Assembly: GCA_015057715.1 (NCBI GenBank)
Contig: SVDS01000037.1
Span: forward strand, 1 to 37,440
Direction of reading: 5' to 3'
From: Paenibacillaceae bacterium
GTDB lineage: Bacteria; Bacillota; Clostridia; Lachnospirales; Lachnospiraceae
DNA length: 37,440 nt
Below the pieces are notes generated by a model. It made no database searches and had not been told where the DNA came from. It was given only the letters and a program-made list of their open reading frames with translations. Each line of letters begins with the position of its first letter. Positions within the stretch are counted from its first letter, which is position 1. The translations under genes were made by a program, and so were the position numbers. Of the stretch, positions 14,247-21,466 are shown piece after piece.

Positions 14247-16454
14247 TCAGTCTTTCTCTCCTCCTAAATTCAGCTTTGCAAACGCATCTGCAAAAGGAGA
14301 ATTGATGGGCTCAGCGACCTCATTTTTCTGCTTATTTAAATATTTCGCCACATCTTTCTTGGAGACTCCGGCACCTTCCTTCGTCCGGCGTTCTTTAAAG
14401 GCAGTCAGCTTTTCTTTATAACCGCATCTGCAGACAAAGATCTGTCCGTCTCCTTTTCCTTTCAGTTCCAGCTTTTTATGGCAGACCGGGCATCTGGCAT
14501 TGCTGGTTCTTGAAATCACTTCCCGATGTCCGCATTCCCGGTCCTGACAGACTAACATCTCACTGTTTTTTCCTTTGACAGAAAGCATCCGCTTTCCGCA
14601 AACGGGACATTTGGTATTGGTAAGATTATCATGACGGAAATTTCCTTCTCCACTCTTGATCATCTGAATTAATTCTTCTGAGTACAGTCTGATATCTTTC
14701 ATAAAAGAACCACGCTTCAGTTTTCCGGCTGCGATAGAAGACAGTTTCATCTCCCAGTCAGCAGTCAGCTCCGGCTTTTTTAAATCCTCCGGAACCAGAG
14801 TCAGAAGCTGCTTTGCTTTTGATGTCAGGTAAATGTCTTTTCCTTTTTTCTCAAGGAGAAAGCTGGAAAATAGTTTTTCTATAATATCCGCTCTGGTTGC
14901 CACAGTTCCCAGACCTCCGGTTTCTCCCAGGGTTTTTGCCATATCCCGGTCCTTTGTCTCCAAAAAGGAGACAGGATTTTCCATGGCTGAGAGGAGGGTA
15001 GCCTCATTAAATGGTGCCGGCGGCTTTGTCTTCCCTTCCGTCAGCAGCAGAGTAAAGCCTTTTACCGGATCGCCCTTTTTCACAGAAGGAAGATTCTGTT
15101 CTTTTACTTCCACTTCTTCATCCTCGTCTTCGTCCGGGGTTTCATAGACTTCCTTCCAGCCGGGTGCTTTTACCGTTTTTCCTCTCGCAACCAGGTTTTC
15201 TCCCCCTATCAGCACCTCAAGCTCGGTCTGTTCATATTCAAATGGGGGATACAAAACTGCCAGAAATCTTCTGACTACCAGGTCATAGACCCGCCTCTCA
15301 TCAATGGTCATATGATCCATCTGAACAAACTGTTCTGTGGGAATGATGGCATGATGATCGGATACTTTTTTATCATCTACAAAATAGGGCTTTGCTTCAA
15401 TCTTCACATTGTGCAGTTTCCCTGCAAGCTTTCTGTAAGGCCCCACACCGCAGGCTTCCAGCCTTTCTTTGATCGAGGGGACAATATCAGAGCTTAAATA
15501 CCGGGAATCTGTTCTTGGATAGGTCAGCACTTTATGATTCTCGTACAGCCTCTGCATAATATTCAGGGTTTCTTTTGCTGAATAATTAAACTTCCGGTTT
15601 GCCTCTCTTTGAAGCTCTGTCAAGTCATACAGCTGGGGAGCAAAGCTCTTTTTGGGAGTGCTTTTTACTTCGGTAATTATACCGTCTTTTCCGTTATCCA
15701 TCTGCTTAAGCAGTCCTTCTAAGCGTTCCCGGTCAAAAGAACGGTAACTTTTCGATTTTTCATCCCGCCAGATAAATGTTAACGCAGGCTGGGAAGCCTT
15801 TGCTGTTATACCATAATAGGACTTTGGTACAAAGTTTTTAATCTCTTCTTCTCTCCTTGCAATCATTGCCAGGGTAGGAGTCTGAACACGTCCGCAGCTT
15901 AACTGGGCATTGTATTTGCAGGTCAGAGCTCTGGTTGCATTGATTCCCACCAGCCAGTCCGCTTCTGCACGGCACATGGCTGCATCGTAGAGATTATCGT
16001 ATTCATGTCCGTTCTTCAGACGGGCAAAACCTTCGTTGATGGCTTTATCTGTAACAGAAGAGATCCAGAGCCTTTTAATTGGCTTTTTGTTTCCTGCTTT
16101 TTCCAGAATCAGGCGGGCTACCAGTTCCCCTTCCCGTCCCGCATCGGTTGCAATGATGATTTCTCCCACATCATTTCTGTGAATCTGTTTTTTCACCACG
16201 CTGTACTGCTTTCCGGTCTGTTTGATTACCTCAAGCCGGAACTGATCCGGCATCATGGGAAGATCTTCCATCTTCCATTCCTTATATTTAGGATCGTAAT
16301 CCTCCGGGTCTGCCAGGGTGACTAAATGGCCTAACCCCCAGGTAATCACATAGGCGTTCCCTTCCAGGACACCTCCCTGATTCTTTGTACAGTGAAGCAC
16401 CCGGGCAATATCCCGGGCGACGGATGGTTTCTCTGCTATAATTAAAGATTTCAT
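14247..16454 (-). CDS. topB: DNA topoisomerase III
   Basis: A 735-residue type IA topoisomerase that relaxes negative supercoils and decatenates DNA through a tyrosyl-DNA intermediate. The N-terminal TOPRIM domain has E8 (IAEKPSVA) and the D104 region (TDAGREGE). SCGRVQTPTLAMI lies at about residues 186-198. The catalytic tyrosine is Y312 in TYPRTDSRYL. The C-terminal part has two Cys4 zinc-ribbon-like modules (CPVCGKR with CQDRECGH, then CPVCHKK with CRCG), followed by a short basic tail. The start has GGAGG 6 bases upstream. It appears to be a single-gene unit. Confidence 0.96.
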   Translation of the reverse strand: MKSLIIAEKPSVARDIARVLHCTKNQGGVLEGNAYVITWGLGHLVTLADPEDYDPKYKEWKMEDLPMMPDQFRLEVIKQTGKQYSVVKKQIHRNDVGEIIIATDAGREGELVARLILEKAGNKKPIKRLWISSVTDKAINEGFARLKNGHEYDNLYDAAMCRAEADWLVGINATRALTCKYNAQLSCGRVQTPTLAMIARREEEIKNFVPKSYYGITAKASQPALTFIWRDEKSKSYRSFDRERLEGLLKQMDNGKDGIITEVKSTPKKSFAPQLYDLTELQREANRKFNYSAKETLNIMQRLYENHKVLTYPRTDSRYLSSDIVPSIKERLEACGVGPYRKLAGKLHNVKIEAKPYFVDDKKVSDHHAIIPTEQFVQMDHMTIDERRVYDLVVRRFLAVLYPPFEYEQTELEVLIGGENLVARGKTVKAPGWKEVYETPDEDEDEEVEVKEQNLPSVKKGDPVKGFTLLLTEGKTKPPAPFNEATLLSAMENPVSFLETKDRDMAKTLGETGGLGTVATRADIIEKLFSSFLLEKKGKDIYLTSKAKQLLTLVPEDLKKPELTADWEMKLSSIAAGKLKRGSFMKDIRLYSEELIQMIKSGEGNFRHDNLTNTKCPVCGKRMLSVKGKNSEMLVCQDRECGHREVISRTSNARCPVCHKKLELKGKGDGQIFVCRCGYKEKLTAFKERRTKEGAGVSKKDVAKYLNKQKNEVAEPINSPFADAFAKLNLGGEKD

Positions 16455-16483
16455 TCTATTCCTCCAATGGCATTTCTATCTTT

Positions 16484-16512
16484 ATTATAGCTCATTGGAC
16501 GAATTATGACAA
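16484..16512 (-). promoter_or_regulatory. Sigma-A promoter of topB
   Basis: Minus-strand TTGTCA (16507-16512) and perfect TATAAT (16484-16489) with a 17-base spacer, about 30 bases upstream of the topB ATG. Confidence 0.75.
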
Positions 16513-16579
16513 CTGGCGGCATACTTCATAGACTATCACGGTATCTTCCTGCCTCGCTTGTGTATGTGTTTTTTATACC

Positions 16580-16716
16580 AAAAAAGCCGTACTGTCATGC
16601 GGTAACAGGTACGGCTTTTTCGTAGGAGTCATGATCCCTCACGGGTCAAATGAAGGATGCAATCAGAGGGTTAGTCTGATGTTAGAATATTCACACGTAG
16701 TTAGGATTAACTAACT
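16580..16716 (-). ncRNA. Candidate structured small RNA, copy 1
   Basis: A roughly 137-nt minus-strand element in the 324-base gap between topB and the esterase. In RNA order it has a 5' hairpin, AGTTAG / CTAACT with hexaloop (16699-16716); a conserved GAATATTC; a hairpin CAGA/TCTG whose loop is CTAACCC; a hairpin GACCC/GGGATC closed by a GUGA tetraloop; a single-stranded ATGACTCCTAC; and an intrinsic terminator with 7 bp (GCCGTAC/GTACGGC) around CTGTTACCGCATGACA, ending in six T (16580-16585). Its own promoter-like sequence is immediately upstream. A second copy lies at 20356-20497. Accessible CTAACCC and UCCU-like segments would suit pairing with Shine-Dalgarno sequences. I do not recognise the family; a mobile palindromic repeat is the main alternative. 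Confidence 0.6.
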
Positions 16717-16722
16717 GTCATA

Positions 16723-16751
16723 ATAATATCATAAGGTTTTTGAAAAAACAA
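16723..16751 (-). promoter_or_regulatory. Promoter-like sequence of small-RNA copy 1
   Basis: Minus-strand TTGTTT (16746-16751), 17 bases, then TATTAT (16723-16728). The predicted start falls at the first base of the 5' hairpin. The same arrangement recurs at copy 2. Confidence 0.55.
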
Positions 16752-16778
16752 GCCCTCTTTTTAGGAAAGAATTCTCAA

Positions 16779-17579
16779 CTAAACCGGAAGCATCCATTGC
16801 AGGACATTCTTGATATACTGATCCCAGAAATCCCAGTTATGATTGCCCGGTCCTTCCTCATAAATTACATGGGCACCCTTTTCTTCCATTATTTTCTTTA
16901 CTTCTTTGTTCATTTCATAAAGGAAATCCTCCGTACCGCAGGCCTGATAAAGCTCCGGTACGATTCCCTCATTTACACAGCGGTCATACAGAACCATCAG
17001 ATCTGCACTGCTTCCAGCAATCTCATCCGGATTTTCAAAAATATTTTCCCAGGGGAACGGACCATCAATGGATCCTTTTTTAATTCCCTCAAAGGTTTTT
17101 ACAATATTAAGCGCCCCAGACATACTGGCAGCCTTGGCATACTGCTCCGGTTTTGATAATCCTAAAAACCATGCCCCATAGCCTCCCATGGACAGTCCTG
17201 CTACAAAGGTATCCTCCCGTCTTTTGGAAACCGGAAAAATACTTTTAATGAATCCAGGAAGTTCTTCTGAAAAGAAGGTAAAGTAGCGGTTTCCATGGTA
17301 CATATCCTGATAAAAGCTATTTTCCGCTGACGCCATAACTACCACGCAGCAATGCTTCTGAGCATAACGTTCGATGTTGGAAAAACGCATCCAGGAGCTG
17401 TAATCACCAAACGCTCCATGAAGCAGATACAGGACTGGAAGACCTTTTTCATAAGGAAATGCTTTCTTTGCTGATTCACTGGTGATCTGCTCATTTCCCT
17501 CTGGTGTTGGTACAAATACATTGACGTCCACTGTATGTCCCAAAGAATAACTATAATAATGACAATTCATACTGGCCAT
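16779..17579 (-). CDS. Esterase of the tributyrin esterase / esterase D family
   Basis: A 266-residue cytoplasmic alpha/beta hydrolase. The oxyanion-hole region is LYLLHGAFGDYSSW. The nucleophile is S130 in GLSMGGYGAW, the likely acid is D218 (CGTEDFLY), and the catalytic histidine is H247 (GPGNHNWDFWD). Family members cleave short-chain acyl esters, including acetylated sugars, and this gene is divergent from a GH31 glycosidase, so deacetylation of oligosaccharides is a reasonable inference. The ATG at 17579 is preferred over the internal Met4 because AAGGAGG lies 8 bases upstream. It transcribes toward small-RNA copy 1; I see no separate terminator between. Confidence 0.88.
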   Translation of the reverse strand: MASMNCHYYSYSLGHTVDVNVFVPTPEGNEQITSESAKKAFPYEKGLPVLYLLHGAFGDYSSWMRFSNIERYAQKHCCVVVMASAENSFYQDMYHGNRYFTFFSEELPGFIKSIFPVSKRREDTFVAGLSMGGYGAWFLGLSKPEQYAKAASMSGALNIVKTFEGIKKGSIDGPFPWENIFENPDEIAGSSADLMVLYDRCVNEGIVPELYQACGTEDFLYEMNKEVKKIMEEKGAHVIYEEGPGNHNWDFWDQYIKNVLQWMLPV

Positions 17580-17602
17580 GGCTGAAACCTCCTTTTTTCT
17601 TC

Positions 17603-17639
17603 ATTATATTCGTCTTCGTCTTTCAGTACTAGACAAAAA
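17603..17639 (-). promoter_or_regulatory. Esterase promoter region with GTCTAGTACT motif
   Basis: A TATAAT (17603-17608) lies 24 bases before the ATG with no good -35. At the -35 side is GTCTAGTACT (17625-17634), nearly identical to a motif in the facing GH31 promoter, suggesting shared activator control. Confidence 0.4.
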
Positions 17640-17762
17640 TTGCACTTTTTTGATATATCCTATACCTATTTTGCTCTTATATCCCCAGGTTTGCGTCTTT
17701 ATCCGGCATATTTCCCTCTGAAAGAGTGCAAGATATGTATAGTTTTGACTGACAGTCTGCAA

Positions 17763-17805
17763 TTTTAGTCTAGTATTTGATTGCCGTTTTCTTTATGATT
17801 ATATC
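17763..17805 (+). promoter_or_regulatory. GH31 promoter region with GTCTAGTATT motif
   Basis: Plus-strand TTGATT (17777-17782) and TATATC (17800-17805) with a 17-base spacer form a moderate promoter. GTCTAGTATT (17768-17777) abuts the -35 box and matches, in inverted orientation, the motif before the esterase. Confidence 0.4.
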
Positions 17806-17846
17806 ACAAACCTGTTTTTGAATTACAGCAAAGGAGTATATGCCTT

Positions 17847-20348
17847 ATGAAGCTATGTACAAACGTGAATGAAGTAAAGGAGATGGAGGGTTATTTTAAA
17901 ATTATTACCAATTCCATCGAGATCAGGGTACAGTTTTTAACAGAAACCATTTTAAGAATCCGCGCGGGATTTGACGGCGATTTTGCGGAAGAATCCTACA
18001 GTCTGGTTATGACCGCATGGGAGGACCGCATGGACGGGCTTTTAAAAGGACAGAGAAAGCGGGTTGTTCCAGCCACTGCAAGTCTCAGCCAGACCGGGGA
18101 ACAGGCCATTCTGACCGGGTCCCAGTTAAAGGTTGTGATTGAAAAAGATCCATTCCGTATCTGCGTTTATGATAAAGAAGGCACCTGTCTTCATTCTGAT
18201 ATTGTAGACCTTGGCTATTTAGAGGACAGCAATCATCGCCGGATTCACACCAGTGAGATTTCACCCCAGGACTGCTTCTACGGATTTGGAGAAAAGAGCG
18301 GGCAGTGGAATAAAGCGCAAAAGTTCCTGTCCATGAGCCCCAAGGACGCCATGGGTTATAACCCAAAGGAAACAGATTCCCTGTATAAGCACATTCCGTT
18401 TTACATTAAATTAAACCGGGACTCAAAAAAAGCAGTGGGATATTTCTATCATAATACTTATGAATGCGATTTTGATATGGGAAGAGAAAAGAGCAATTAC
18501 TGGAAACCTCACAGCCGGTATCGTACCGACGGCGGTGATATCGATTTATTCCTGATCGCCGGTCCTTCTATTCGTGAGGTTGTTTCCGGGTATACCGATC
18601 TTACAGGTAAATCCGCCATGCTTCCCCGGTATGCACTTGGATATCTTGGCTCGTCCATGTATTATCCCGAGCTGGAGGCTGACTGTGATGACGCAATCAC
18701 AGAATTTATTGACACAACCAAGGAAGAGGATATTCCAGTCGATGGTTTCCAGCTTTCCTCCGGTTATACCTCTCAGGACACCGAACAGGGCGTGAAACGC
18801 TGCGTATTTACCTGGAATGAAAAACGTTTTAAAAACCCCAGAGACTTTTTTGCACAGATGAAAAAAAGAGGAATTACCGTATCTCCAAACGTAAAACCTG
18901 GAATTCTTCTTTCTCACCCCAATCTGGAACAGATGAAAGCAAAAGATATCTTTGTAAAAGACAGCCAGAGCGACGAGCCCGGTATCGGTACCTGGTGGGG
19001 CGGAAAGGGAGTTTTTGCTGATTTTACCAAACCCGTAACCCGCAGCGTATGGAAAGAACTATTAAAGGAAAATGTTCTGGAAATGGGAACCTGCTCGGTG
19101 TGGAACGACAACTGTGAATATGACAGCATGGTGGACAAAGACTGCCGCTGTGATTTTGAAGGCAAAGGCGGTACCATCGGCCAGTTAAAATCAGTAATGT
19201 CCAACATCATGTGCCAGATCACCGATGAGGCCATTCATGAAACCTTTGACAACACAAGACCCTTTATCGTATGCCGGTCCGGACACAGCGGAATTCAGCG
19301 CTACGCACAGACCTGGGCTGGAGATAACTTAACCTGCTGGGATTCACTAAAATATAATATAGCAACCATACTGGGCATGAGTTTAAGCGGCGTCGCAAAT
19401 CAGGGCTGTGACATCGGCGGATTTTACGGTACATCTCCGGAAGCAGAGCTAATGGTCCGCTGGATTCAAAACGGTATTTTCCAGCCGAGATTTTCCGTAC
19501 ACTCCGTAAATACGGATAATACGGTAACAGAGCCATGGATGTACGGTAACCACACCGGATATATCCGGGATGCCATTAAGTTCCGCTACAGACTGATCCC
19601 TTACCTGTACTCTCTTATGGAACGTGCCCACGAAACCGGATTACCTATTATGGAACCAATGTGCAGCGCATTTCAAAATGACCCTGCCTGTTATGAAGAG
19701 GGCATTGATTTTATGATCGGGGATTCACTGCTGGTAGCTAATGTAGTGGAAAAAGGAGCTCTTACGAGAAGCGTCTACCTGCCCGAGGGCGAGACGTTCT
19801 ATGATTTCTATACCAGAGAAAGATTCGAGGGTGGACAAACCCTTGAGTTCCCGGTAACAATAGCAAGTATTCCACTCTTTGTACGGGAAGGTGCAATCAT
19901 TCCTATGGCAGCCAACCAGATGAATAACTTAACCACCGAATCTGCTACCGGTATCCATCTGCTTATTGCTGCTGGCAAAGACAATTCCTTTACACTCTAC
20001 GAGGATGACGGCACTACATTAAATTATCAGAACGGGGAGTATTTAAAAACCCAGATTGAAATGATTTCTGGTGAACAGACCGTTGTGGAATTTAAGCAGG
20101 AGGGCAGCTATCAGACTACGGTTGAAAGTATTTATTTAGATGTAATCCGCAGAGACAAGGCTCCGTTCTGGATTACATTAGACGGTAAGGAACTGCCTCA
20201 TTTCCTGTATCGTAAAAAATTCGAAGCAGCAGACTGTGGCTGGTACTACAGCCAGACATTAAAATCCGTTCAGATTAAATATCCCAATCCTAAAAAAGAC
20301 TGCAGACTTGTGATTTCATTCCAGCAGTTTGATATGATCGGAATGTAA
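17847..20348 (+). CDS. Glycoside hydrolase family 31 (alpha-glucosidase / alpha-xylosidase type)
   Basis: An 833-residue GH31 enzyme without signal peptide, so cytoplasmic. An N-terminal beta-sandwich (to about residue 240) contains DCFYGFGEKSGQ. The TIM barrel follows with LPRYALGYLGS, the nucleophile D421 in VWNDNCEYDS, and the acid/base D493 in QTWAGDNLTCW. Beta-sandwich domains follow, with YEDDGTT near 715. GH31 enzymes release alpha-linked glucose or xylose from the non-reducing end with retention; which sugar is used here is not decided by these motifs. AAGGAG lies 10 bases upstream of the ATG. The stop is followed after a few bases by the bidirectional terminator hairpin of small-RNA copy 2. 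Confidence 0.92.
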   Translation: MKLCTNVNEVKEMEGYFKIITNSIEIRVQFLTETILRIRAGFDGDFAEESYSLVMTAWEDRMDGLLKGQRKRVVPATASLSQTGEQAILTGSQLKVVIEKDPFRICVYDKEGTCLHSDIVDLGYLEDSNHRRIHTSEISPQDCFYGFGEKSGQWNKAQKFLSMSPKDAMGYNPKETDSLYKHIPFYIKLNRDSKKAVGYFYHNTYECDFDMGREKSNYWKPHSRYRTDGGDIDLFLIAGPSIREVVSGYTDLTGKSAMLPRYALGYLGSSMYYPELEADCDDAITEFIDTTKEEDIPVDGFQLSSGYTSQDTEQGVKRCVFTWNEKRFKNPRDFFAQMKKRGITVSPNVKPGILLSHPNLEQMKAKDIFVKDSQSDEPGIGTWWGGKGVFADFTKPVTRSVWKELLKENVLEMGTCSVWNDNCEYDSMVDKDCRCDFEGKGGTIGQLKSVMSNIMCQITDEAIHETFDNTRPFIVCRSGHSGIQRYAQTWAGDNLTCWDSLKYNIATILGMSLSGVANQGCDIGGFYGTSPEAELMVRWIQNGIFQPRFSVHSVNTDNTVTEPWMYGNHTGYIRDAIKFRYRLIPYLYSLMERAHETGLPIMEPMCSAFQNDPACYEEGIDFMIGDSLLVANVVEKGALTRSVYLPEGETFYDFYTRERFEGGQTLEFPVTIASIPLFVREGAIIPMAANQMNNLTTESATGIHLLIAAGKDNSFTLYEDDGTTLNYQNGEYLKTQIEMISGEQTVVEFKQEGSYQTTVESIYLDVIRRDKAPFWITLDGKELPHFLYRKKFEAADCGWYYSQTLKSVQIKYPNPKKDCRLVISFQQFDMIGM

Positions 20349-20355
20349 TAAAACC

Positions 20356-20497
20356 AAAAAGCCCGTCCCTGTCATGCGGTTACAGGGGCGGGTTTTTTGT
20401 AGGAGTCATGATCCCTCACGGGTCAATGAAGGATAATCTCAGAGGGTTAGTCTGATGTATAGAATATTCACATGTAGTTAGTTATTGCTAACTAAGT
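20356..20497 (-). ncRNA. Candidate structured small RNA, copy 2
   Basis: Paralogue of the element at 16580-16716, same orientation, about 140 nt. It has a 5' hairpin TAGTTAG / CTAACTA with hexaloop CAATAA; conserved GAATATTC; CAGA/TCTG hairpin with loop CTAACCC; GACCC/GGGATC with GUGA loop; ATGACTCCTAC; and a terminator GCCCGTCCCTGT opposite ACAGGGGCGGGT around the conserved loop. Compared with copy 1, the 5' loop and terminator stem differ in sequence but keep their pairing, which argues for selection on structure. On the plus strand the terminator hairpin lies just past the GH31 stop and probably also ends that transcript. Confidence 0.6.
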
Positions 20498-20499
20498 TC

Positions 20500-20528
20500 A
20501 TGATACCACAGGCATTAAGAAAAAGCAA
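20500..20528 (-). promoter_or_regulatory. Promoter-like sequence of small-RNA copy 2
   Basis: Minus-strand TTGCTT (20523-20528), 17 bases, then TATCAT (20500-20505), at the same position relative to the RNA as in copy 1. Confidence 0.55.
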
Positions 20529-20564
20529 GAACATTTACTGATATCATTTCTCATTAATCCTATA

Positions 20565-20593
20565 TTGATATCCGGTCATTAAAACGTTATAAT
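20565..20593 (+). promoter_or_regulatory. Sigma-A promoter of the AraC-family regulator
   Basis: Plus-strand TTGATA (20565-20570) and perfect TATAAT (20588-20593) with a 17-base spacer, about 31 bases before the TTG start. Confidence 0.75.
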
Positions 20594-20623
20594 GAAGCCA
20601 GTTATACCCATGGAGGTACGATC

Positions 20624-21466
20624 TTGATTGATACAGCAAGTTTCATTATGGCAGGAGGCCAGATGATCGCCACTGAGCGGATTCAGGGCGTGAACGATAA
20701 CATGGCCAAATCCCATTACCACGAATATTTTGAATTATATTATCTGGAATACGGAAAACGATATCATATGGTGAACGATAATATTTATTCCTTAAACTCA
20801 GGGGAATTTATTATCTTTCCTCCCTACTCCATGCATCATTCCTATGGAGATAACGACGTGCCCTTCAAACGGGTTCTGGTCTATTTTTTCCCAGAAACGG
20901 TCATTGTGCCGGAAGTTCTCCACACCCTCAGCCAGTCAGCCGGAGTGTACCGGTTTGATACAAAAGCCAGCCAGTCCGTTCATCTTCTGTTAAATGATAT
21001 TTTAAAAGAACAGTGCGATGGGGAAGGGTTTCATTCTGATGCCATGAAGATGCTGCTTAATCTTCTTTTAATTAAAATCGCCAGAAGAGCGGATGAAAAA
21101 GCAGCCCCGGAAAACCGGAGCCGCATTACGGAAATTCTTCACTACCTTCACAGCCATTCTTCAGAAAACATCACTCTGGAGGATCTGGCCTCCCGCTTTT
21201 ATTTAAGCCCTTATTACTTATGCCGGGAGTTTAAGCGCTACACCAACAGCACCATTATCCAGTATATCAATAACATTCGCATTATCCATGCTCAAAGGCT
21301 TTTTATGGAGACAAACCGGACAATCACAGATATCAGCAAAGAGGTGGGCTTTTCCAATGTAACCCATTTTAACCGTGTATTTAAGTCCATAATTGGCATG
21401 TCACCTTCTAAAAACCGCAAGCAGTATACCGACCAGAAAAAACAGAGCAATGAGAAAAGTACTTAA
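20624..21466 (+). CDS. AraC-family transcriptional regulator with cupin sensor domain
   Basis: A 280-residue regulator. The N-terminal AraC-type cupin domain (HYHEYFELYYLEYG, then GEFIIFPPYSMHHSY) probably binds a sugar. The C-terminal double helix-turn-helix runs from about residue 165 (SENITLEDLASRFYLSPYYL, then NRTITDISKEVGFSNVTHFN). The start is TTG at 20624 with GGAGG 7 bases upstream; the ATG at 20610 hits a stop at once. It follows the GH31 gene and is convergent with the alpha/beta hydrolase, with stop codons overlapping by 4 bases. It is a good candidate regulator of GH31 and the esterase, perhaps through the GTCTAGTA motif in their shared promoter region, but this is inference. Confidence 0.9.
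   Translation: MIDTASFIMAGGQMIATERIQGVNDNMAKSHYHEYFELYYLEYGKRYHMVNDNIYSLNSGEFIIFPPYSMHHSYGDNDVPFKRVLVYFFPETVIVPEVLHTLSQSAGVYRFDTKASQSVHLLLNDILKEQCDGEGFHSDAMKMLLNLLLIKIARRADEKAAPENRSRITEILHYLHSHSSENITLEDLASRFYLSPYYLCREFKRYTNSTIIQYINNIRIIHAQRLFMETNRTITDISKEVGFSNVTHFNRVFKSIIGMSPSKNRKQYTDQKKQSNEKST

Follow-up and report, generated by a model that had tools for sequence, protein, structure and literature searches.

Two related elements, here called A and B, lie on the minus strand of the window, the whole 37,440-nucleotide stretch of DNA that was analysed, at 16580-16716 and 20356-20497, where the earlier note had placed them. Element A has an esterase gene on one side and topB on the other (gene names assigned by eye); all three are on the minus strand, with topB approximately 125 nt downstream of A. 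Element B is flanked by a GH31 gene that converges on it and by an AraC-type gene that diverges from it. The AraC-type gene starts at 20624, and a Fur-like box of B (20539-20553), approximately 70 bp upstream, could control it.

A and B share 88% identity (blastn, A as query) and present the same parts in the same order. Read 5′ to 3′ on the minus strand, these are an upstream box beginning TGAGAA, a −35 hexamer, 17 nt, a −10 hexamer, the palindrome AGTTAG-N6-CTAACT, the sequence ACRTGTGAATATTC (hereafter the core), hairpin 2, hairpin 3, the linker ATGACTCCTAC and an intrinsic terminator. The CTAACCC loop, the third hairpin, the linker and the terminator loop ACCGCATGACA are common to both. 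A 43-nt inner pattern allowing up to three mismatches, with a chance expectation of 0.00, matched A alone; B was missed because of a 1-nt indel inside the pattern.

All features described below are on the minus strand. The promoter of A is TTGTTT-17-TATTAT with a TATG extension (16723-16751), and that of B is TTGCTT-17-TATCAT with a TGTG extension (20500-20528); both were assigned from their hexamers and from conservation across copies. As the earlier note had proposed, the promoter sits at the same place in the copies, and it is conserved.

A small-RNA gene family in Lacrimispora

A blastn search of 116 genomes found matches in 27, comprising all 25 Lacrimispora genomes and one each of two other genera, with 1 to 3 matches per matching genome and two strong copies in the source genome of the window. 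Among 26 sequence records containing the hairpin-2 string, 24 also matched the element by blastn, under the labels Lacrimispora, Clostridium, Hungatella and, for a few, Paenibacillaceae; in the other two (L042 and L065) the string was taken as a chance occurrence, blastn to the element having given no match. The Paenibacillaceae labels of L047, L057 and L058 look wrong, as the counterparts G017:C14 and G019:C36 were placed in Lacrimispora by the genome search.

A covariance-model search of relatives had been suggested in the earlier note, which also named many scattered copies as the mark of a mobile repeat. By blastn the copies were few per genome, and no plasmid record matched A and no phage record matched B. 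Of 397 Lachnospiraceae genomes sampled, nine matched the model, seven of them outside Lacrimispora in six genera. The model was then rebuilt with distant members and matched seven of 392 genomes sampled from the order, namely five Lacrimispora, G240 and G687; both scans used stricter filters, at which weak matches are lost. The G687 match (E 4e-4) was judged to be chance, with neither operator nor core in the stretch inspected. Weak model matches in the source genome (E 0.07 to 8.75) were not counted as copies; one of these, at C92, overlaps the operator of a feo promoter. Together, the blastn and covariance-model scans place the family in every Lacrimispora genome examined and sporadically elsewhere in Lachnospiraceae.

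Rfam 15 returned no match at the gathering threshold across the whole window, and at E values up to 10 the region 16300-20900 gave three chance-level, implausible matches, none over A or B, in keeping with the earlier view that no known family is present. A search of titles and abstracts found no iron-regulated small RNA of Lacrimispora or Lachnospiraceae. Sequence comparison supports the proposal of two paralogous small-RNA genes on the minus strand, and A and B appear to be copies of an apparently undescribed family that extends throughout Lacrimispora.

In several species that lack the GH31-esterase block, a single copy is bordered by topB and a MATE gene, in some with an additional gene towards MATE. 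Where the block is present (the window, G016, G024 and G007), it has a copy on either side, a flanking pattern that local duplication would explain most simply.

Some copies are unusual. G012 (L075:2950-3058) retains only a 3′ remnant, which has lost promoter, operator and core and continues into the terminal part of the MATE gene. G022 (L079:3981-4326) has two tandem copies approximately 70 nt apart and a third elsewhere. In the G428 copy (L094:1408-1632) the core is separated from hairpin 2 by an insert of approximately 90 nt that contains two near-repeats, with the remaining RNA kept.

The predicted RNA is structured and terminated

Both elements fold better than dinucleotide-shuffled sequences (z −5.64 for A and −4.77 for B), with none of 200 shuffles as good. 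In a MAFFT alignment of 25 distinct copies, 15 of the 29 pairs changed on both sides, compared to a shuffled mean of 5.1, and none of 500 shuffles reached this count. The covariation test that the earlier note had called for therefore exceeded shuffles, and the helices with double-sided changes were hairpin 2, hairpin 3 and the terminator. Pairing was found in 91.9% of cells and in 29-47% when the 3′ partners were slid by 1 to 3 columns, a control that leans towards the structure because the structure was drawn from the same sequences. Partial copies 14 and 41 were left out of one alignment, the truncated copy 45 (G012) out of the model alignments, and L094, with its insert, out of one alignment.

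The conserved core of A, ACGTGTGAATATTCTAACAT (16679-16698), is predicted to be unpaired from alignment and folding, as is that of B, ACATGTGAATATTCTATACAT (20455-20475), in the centroid fold. It is followed by hairpin 2, which in A reads TCAGA-CTAACCC-TCTGA (16663-16679, folding and covariation) and in B occupies 20439-20455 (folding). The CTAACCC loop, claimed earlier to be exposed, is so in the Lacrimispora copies; in distant copies AACC(C) lies in the stem or is lost (by eye).

Hairpin 3 spans 16634-16658 in A, where folding and covariation place UGACCC in its loop, and 20411-20434 in B (folding). The earlier note described a GUGA-capped hairpin; the hairpin stands and its stem covaries, whereas a UGACCC-type loop fits most copies better than the proposed cap. 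Distant copies keep this loop (UGACCA in one) on differing stems, and its sequence is lost in two Lacrimispora copies, L069 and L070. The linker, assigned from the alignment, follows at 16622-16632 in A and 20399-20409 in B, and its ACTCCT, noted before as conserved, is kept in all 25 aligned copies. The distance from core to ACTCCT is 57 nt in 14 of these, 56 nt in four and takes other values in seven, one of which (28) stems from an earlier ACTCCT string in L067.

Folding places the intrinsic terminators at 16580-16620 in A, with the loop ACCGCATGA, and at 20356-20398 in B. Changes between the A and B terminators do keep pairing, as had been stated, with a bulge in A, and the terminator was unconditional in all folds seen. 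Read on the plus strand, the hairpin of B could also end the convergent GH31 gene. The loop (16580-16620 and 20356-20398) is invariant in the Lacrimispora alignment and degenerate in distant copies. A pairing of core to terminator loop proposed by RNAalifold is doubtful, as it had no convincing covariation and was broken or shortened in some distant copies (by eye).

Judged by fold z-scores, covariation, terminators and the lack of a conserved reading frame, the elements are predicted to encode a discrete, terminated, structured non-coding RNA.

The 5′ palindrome is shared with iron-uptake genes

The palindrome lies at 16699-16716 in A (AGTTAGTTAATCCTAACT) and at 20476-20493 in B (AGTTAGCAATAACTAACT), as located by palindrome comparison. 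It was initially described as a 5′ hairpin in which changes keep pairing. This does not hold: the six pairs of AGTTAG/CTAACT are identical in A, B and all 25 distinct aligned copies, and only the 6-nt spacer and the flanks vary. Since the pairs never vary, they offer no evidence for an RNA stem, and the pattern is that expected of a protein-binding site. The palindrome is best read as the putative DNA operator of a regulator.

Of 38 sites found when eight genomes were scanned for the gapped palindrome, 36 had exactly 6 nt between the half-sites. The reversed pattern gave 32 sites in the same genomes, so the number of sites is not in itself unusual and the case rests on spacer and neighbours. 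When spacings of 0 to 14 were allowed for GTTAG..CTAAC in G024 (1.6 Mb), ten sites had a spacer of 6, one had a spacer of 5 and the 13 other spacings had none; nine of the ten spacer-6 sites were intergenic.

Nine of the 36 spacer-6 sites in the eight genomes are copies of the small RNA. The 27 others, classed by Pfam or by eye, lie at feoB (5), siderophore-type ABC transporter (6), AhpC-like (3), superoxide dismutase (1), ZIP (1) and DUF3793-flavodoxin (1) genes, AraC-type regulators (3), ABC exporters (2) and other or unclear genes (5). Metal, oxidative-stress or flavodoxin genes thus account for 17 of the 27 by these assignments, and the promoters of feoB, siderophore-type ABC transporter, peroxiredoxin, superoxide dismutase and DUF3793-flavodoxin genes have the palindrome in common. 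In the feoA-feoA-feoB operon of the source genome (named by eye), the palindrome covers the −10 and a Fur-like box adjoins it. Each of the seven copies found outside Lacrimispora has a further TTAG-N6-CTAA that overlies the −10 and precedes any likely start. With the 5′ palindrome read as an operator common to iron-uptake genes, the small RNA would belong to the iron regulon, with no evident link to the esterase/GH31 pair.

DUF3793 (PF12672) genes lie directly downstream of distant RNA copies in two genomes (L092:132-1419 and L093:1742-2344) and of the operator in a third (L132:1832-2846). A flavodoxin-like gene follows DUF3793 in L092 and L132, and a ZnuA-type gene follows it in L093. This placement points to DUF3793 as a likely part of the iron-starvation response.

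Candidate regulators and an upstream Fur-like box

The TTAG-type palindrome is shared by a candidate DtxR-family regulator gene and a feo operon. In G024, feoAB and a 120-aa gene point away from each other, with GTTAG-N6-CTAAC between them; the 120-aa product is near-identical to the protein that the DtxR-family model detected in G016. The palindrome resembles the classical DtxR box, with a different spacing. The iron regulator IdeR is also a DtxR-family protein. A DtxR-family gene is found just beyond feoB in G200, G217 and G321, with a Fur-family gene between the two in G200 and G321 (by eye), and the source genome has four FUR-domain and three DtxR-family matches. Short DtxR-family genes beside feoB recur in several Lachnospiraceae (L156-L158, L163 and L211), sometimes with a Fur-like gene between, and form a candidate two-regulator iron switch.

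The box upstream of the promoter was compared with the 7-1-7 Fur pattern, whose consensus is TGANAATNATTNTCA. The box of B, TGAGAAATGATATCA (20539-20553), has one mismatch to this pattern. That of A, TGAGAATTCTTTCCT (16763-16777), is weak, with three mismatches and a score of its own no better than background; its left half is conserved across copies. A match with at most two mismatches occurs at 21 of 29 distinct sites, compared to 37 of 600 windows in a best-in-window background. In most copies, 24-26 nt separate the first T of TGAKAAWTNNTNTCA from the −35; the exceptions are two copies that lack the box by the pattern used, one in which an earlier TTG served as the anchor, and L095. The spacing of promoter and upstream box is thus nearly constant among copies whose neighbouring genes differ. 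A box with at most one mismatch was found within approximately 100 bp of six of 26 other operator sites, compared to four of 600 random genome windows that were not matched for intergenic location, and in the source genome a strict Fur pattern matched 14 sites, including two at feo operons, compared to six matches of the control. The box is degenerate, and we call it Fur-like rather than Fur. Sites for CcpA, AgrA/LytTR and CodY were considered as readings of the upstream motif and provisionally set aside.

A proposed iron-sparing role

Sequence comparison supports a conserved gene with a promoter, a common operator, a covarying body and a terminator; we infer transcription, a metal response, the identity of the binding protein, repression as opposed to activation, base-pairing and targets. 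The reading that we favour, with rather more confidence than doubt, is that A and B each represent a copy of an iron-responsive small non-coding RNA gene of the iron regulon, whose product would act in trans to spare iron. Because the promoters share a switch sequence with iron-uptake genes, the RNA is probably made when iron is short.

We propose a model in which, with sufficient iron, a DtxR-family regulator would occupy AGTTAG-N6-CTAACT at the transcription start, possibly alongside a Fur-family protein at the upstream 7-1-7 box, and keep the promoter off. When iron falls, the promoter would be derepressed and an RNA of approximately 125-140 nt made, ending at the intrinsic terminator. It could then pair with mRNAs through its predicted unpaired segments, namely the ACAUGUGAAUAUUC core, the UGACCC-type loop and the ACUCCU linker, and the outcome would most likely be lower translation of iron-using proteins, an iron-sparing response. 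The switch half of this model draws on the operators in common, and the mRNA-pairing half on analogy with IsrR, FsrA and MrsI as outlined in PMC9410917.

The energy metabolism of Lachnospiraceae leans on Fe-S enzymes. Six segments of the RNA were tried against 1292 ORFs of G024, of which 11 carried Fe-S motifs (chosen by cysteine motifs, not Pfam). The Fe-S ORFs showed better predicted pairing than the others with three segments, namely the hairpin-3 loop (p 0.011), the core (p 0.023) and a long linker (p 0.025); the ACTCCT linker showed no Fe-S preference in these ORFs (p 0.46). The best of 20 mononucleotide-shuffled segments gave p 0.010 in the case of the core and p 0.046 in that of the hairpin-3 loop. 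The Fe-S signal was not reproduced in a small hold-out of 330 ORFs with six Fe-S (core p 0.35, hairpin-3 loop p 0.23). In a pooled set of 17 Fe-S and 350 sampled other ORFs, the core gave p 0.032, a value reached by none of 24 dinucleotide-shuffled segments, and the hairpin-3 loop gave p 0.031, reached by 11 of 24. Two of the three best core partners in G024 look like hydrogenase-type Fe-S genes (by eye). The hndC pairing string TTCACAYGTA is present at 23 of 23 Lacrimispora loci and also in G039 (no model match) and G045 (24 bits only); as the pairing also occurs where no convincing RNA copy was found, hndC is uninformative as a target.

A wider proposal, on which we are evenly divided, is that this is an iron-starvation RNA family of Lachnospiraceae that evolved independently of RyhB, FsrA, IsrR and MrsI, that it would be switched by a DtxR-family protein (possibly with Fur) through the TTAG-N6-CTAA that marks the iron regulon, and that it would retune Fe-S metabolism, for example hydrogenases, in these strict anaerobes.

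Alternative readings

The same operator might instead serve a metal- or redox-regulated RNA with another job, such as zinc or manganese homeostasis or a peroxide response, which we consider unlikely while taking it seriously. Another metal is possible because a distant copy (L093) is followed by DUF3793 and then the ZnuA-type gene and because one operator site lies at a ZIP gene; the sites at AhpC-like and superoxide dismutase genes point the same way, and the target tests do not establish Fe-S targets. Against this, feoB and siderophore-type ABC genes form the largest groups among the 27 other sites.

It is improbable, in our estimate, that an iron-controlled RNA acts without base-pairing, for example by binding a protein through its invariant core or terminator loop. 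The core and, within Lacrimispora, the loop are conserved but not C-rich, and RNAalifold did propose that the two pair; however, the ACTCCT kept throughout the alignment is the complement of the Shine-Dalgarno sequence AGGAGT.

That the elements are read-through terminators or mobile palindromic repeats instead of genes seems very improbable. Strong terminators end both, and that of B may serve GH31 as well, but promoter and upstream box are conserved, the copies are few in each genome and absent from the plasmid (A) and phage (B) records searched, and their arrangement fits local duplication. We give still less credence to a 5′ leader or riboswitch of a downstream gene: topB follows A on the same strand and other copies precede topB or a LysR-like gene, but B has only the convergent GH31 gene downstream, downstream genes vary among copies and the terminator appears unconditional. 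A small protein-coding gene on either strand is hardly credible, for although short reading frames can be picked out by eye (one in B opens at the GTG of GTGAATATTC), the copies differ by indels that are not multiples of three.

Comparison with known small RNAs

For the favoured reading, an iron-sparing RNA, the role can be likened to that of FsrA, IsrR, MrsI or RyhB, without detectable homology. PMC9410917 names iron-sparing small RNAs for Proteobacteria, Bacillus, staphylococci and mycobacteria. If the reading is true, a candidate in the anaerobic Lachnospiraceae would extend this convergence to another large bacterial group. The analysis also puts forward TTAG-N6-CTAA as a specific operator of the Lachnospiraceae iron regulon, together with a candidate regulator, and both can be tested directly.

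IsrR of Staphylococcus is described there as an iron-regulated RNA with stem-loops, a terminator, Fur boxes, three C-rich regions predicted to be single-stranded and demonstrated targets (PMC9410917). The RNA described here resembles it in its stem-loops, terminator and genus-wide conservation together with regulator boxes; it differs in its probable DtxR-type operator, its weaker C-richness and in having at most candidate targets, with homology judged through Rfam. FsrA of Bacillus subtilis is repressed by Fur, is helped by FbpABC and acts on Shine-Dalgarno regions through a C-rich motif (PMC9410917); it likewise is a Gram-positive iron-sparing RNA, as ours would be, and ACUCCU might act on Shine-Dalgarno regions. 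The window has no Rfam match, and the likeness is to the description of FsrA.

MrsI of Mycobacterium tuberculosis, for which IdeR control is predicted (PMC9410917), comes closest to the type of switch that we propose; unlike the present RNA it is actinobacterial, and it is likened by description, not by sequence. RyhB and PrrF of Proteobacteria are given as Hfq-dependent iron-sparing RNAs, PrrF as two paralogs (PMC9410917). They share the functional idea of iron sparing, and A and B are paralogs as in PrrF, whereas the window again has no Rfam match. The LhrC-type RNAs of Listeria are multicopy and induced by cell-envelope stress (PMC4132741); the family described here can likewise have several similar copies in one genome, and unlike LhrC its operator points to metal control.
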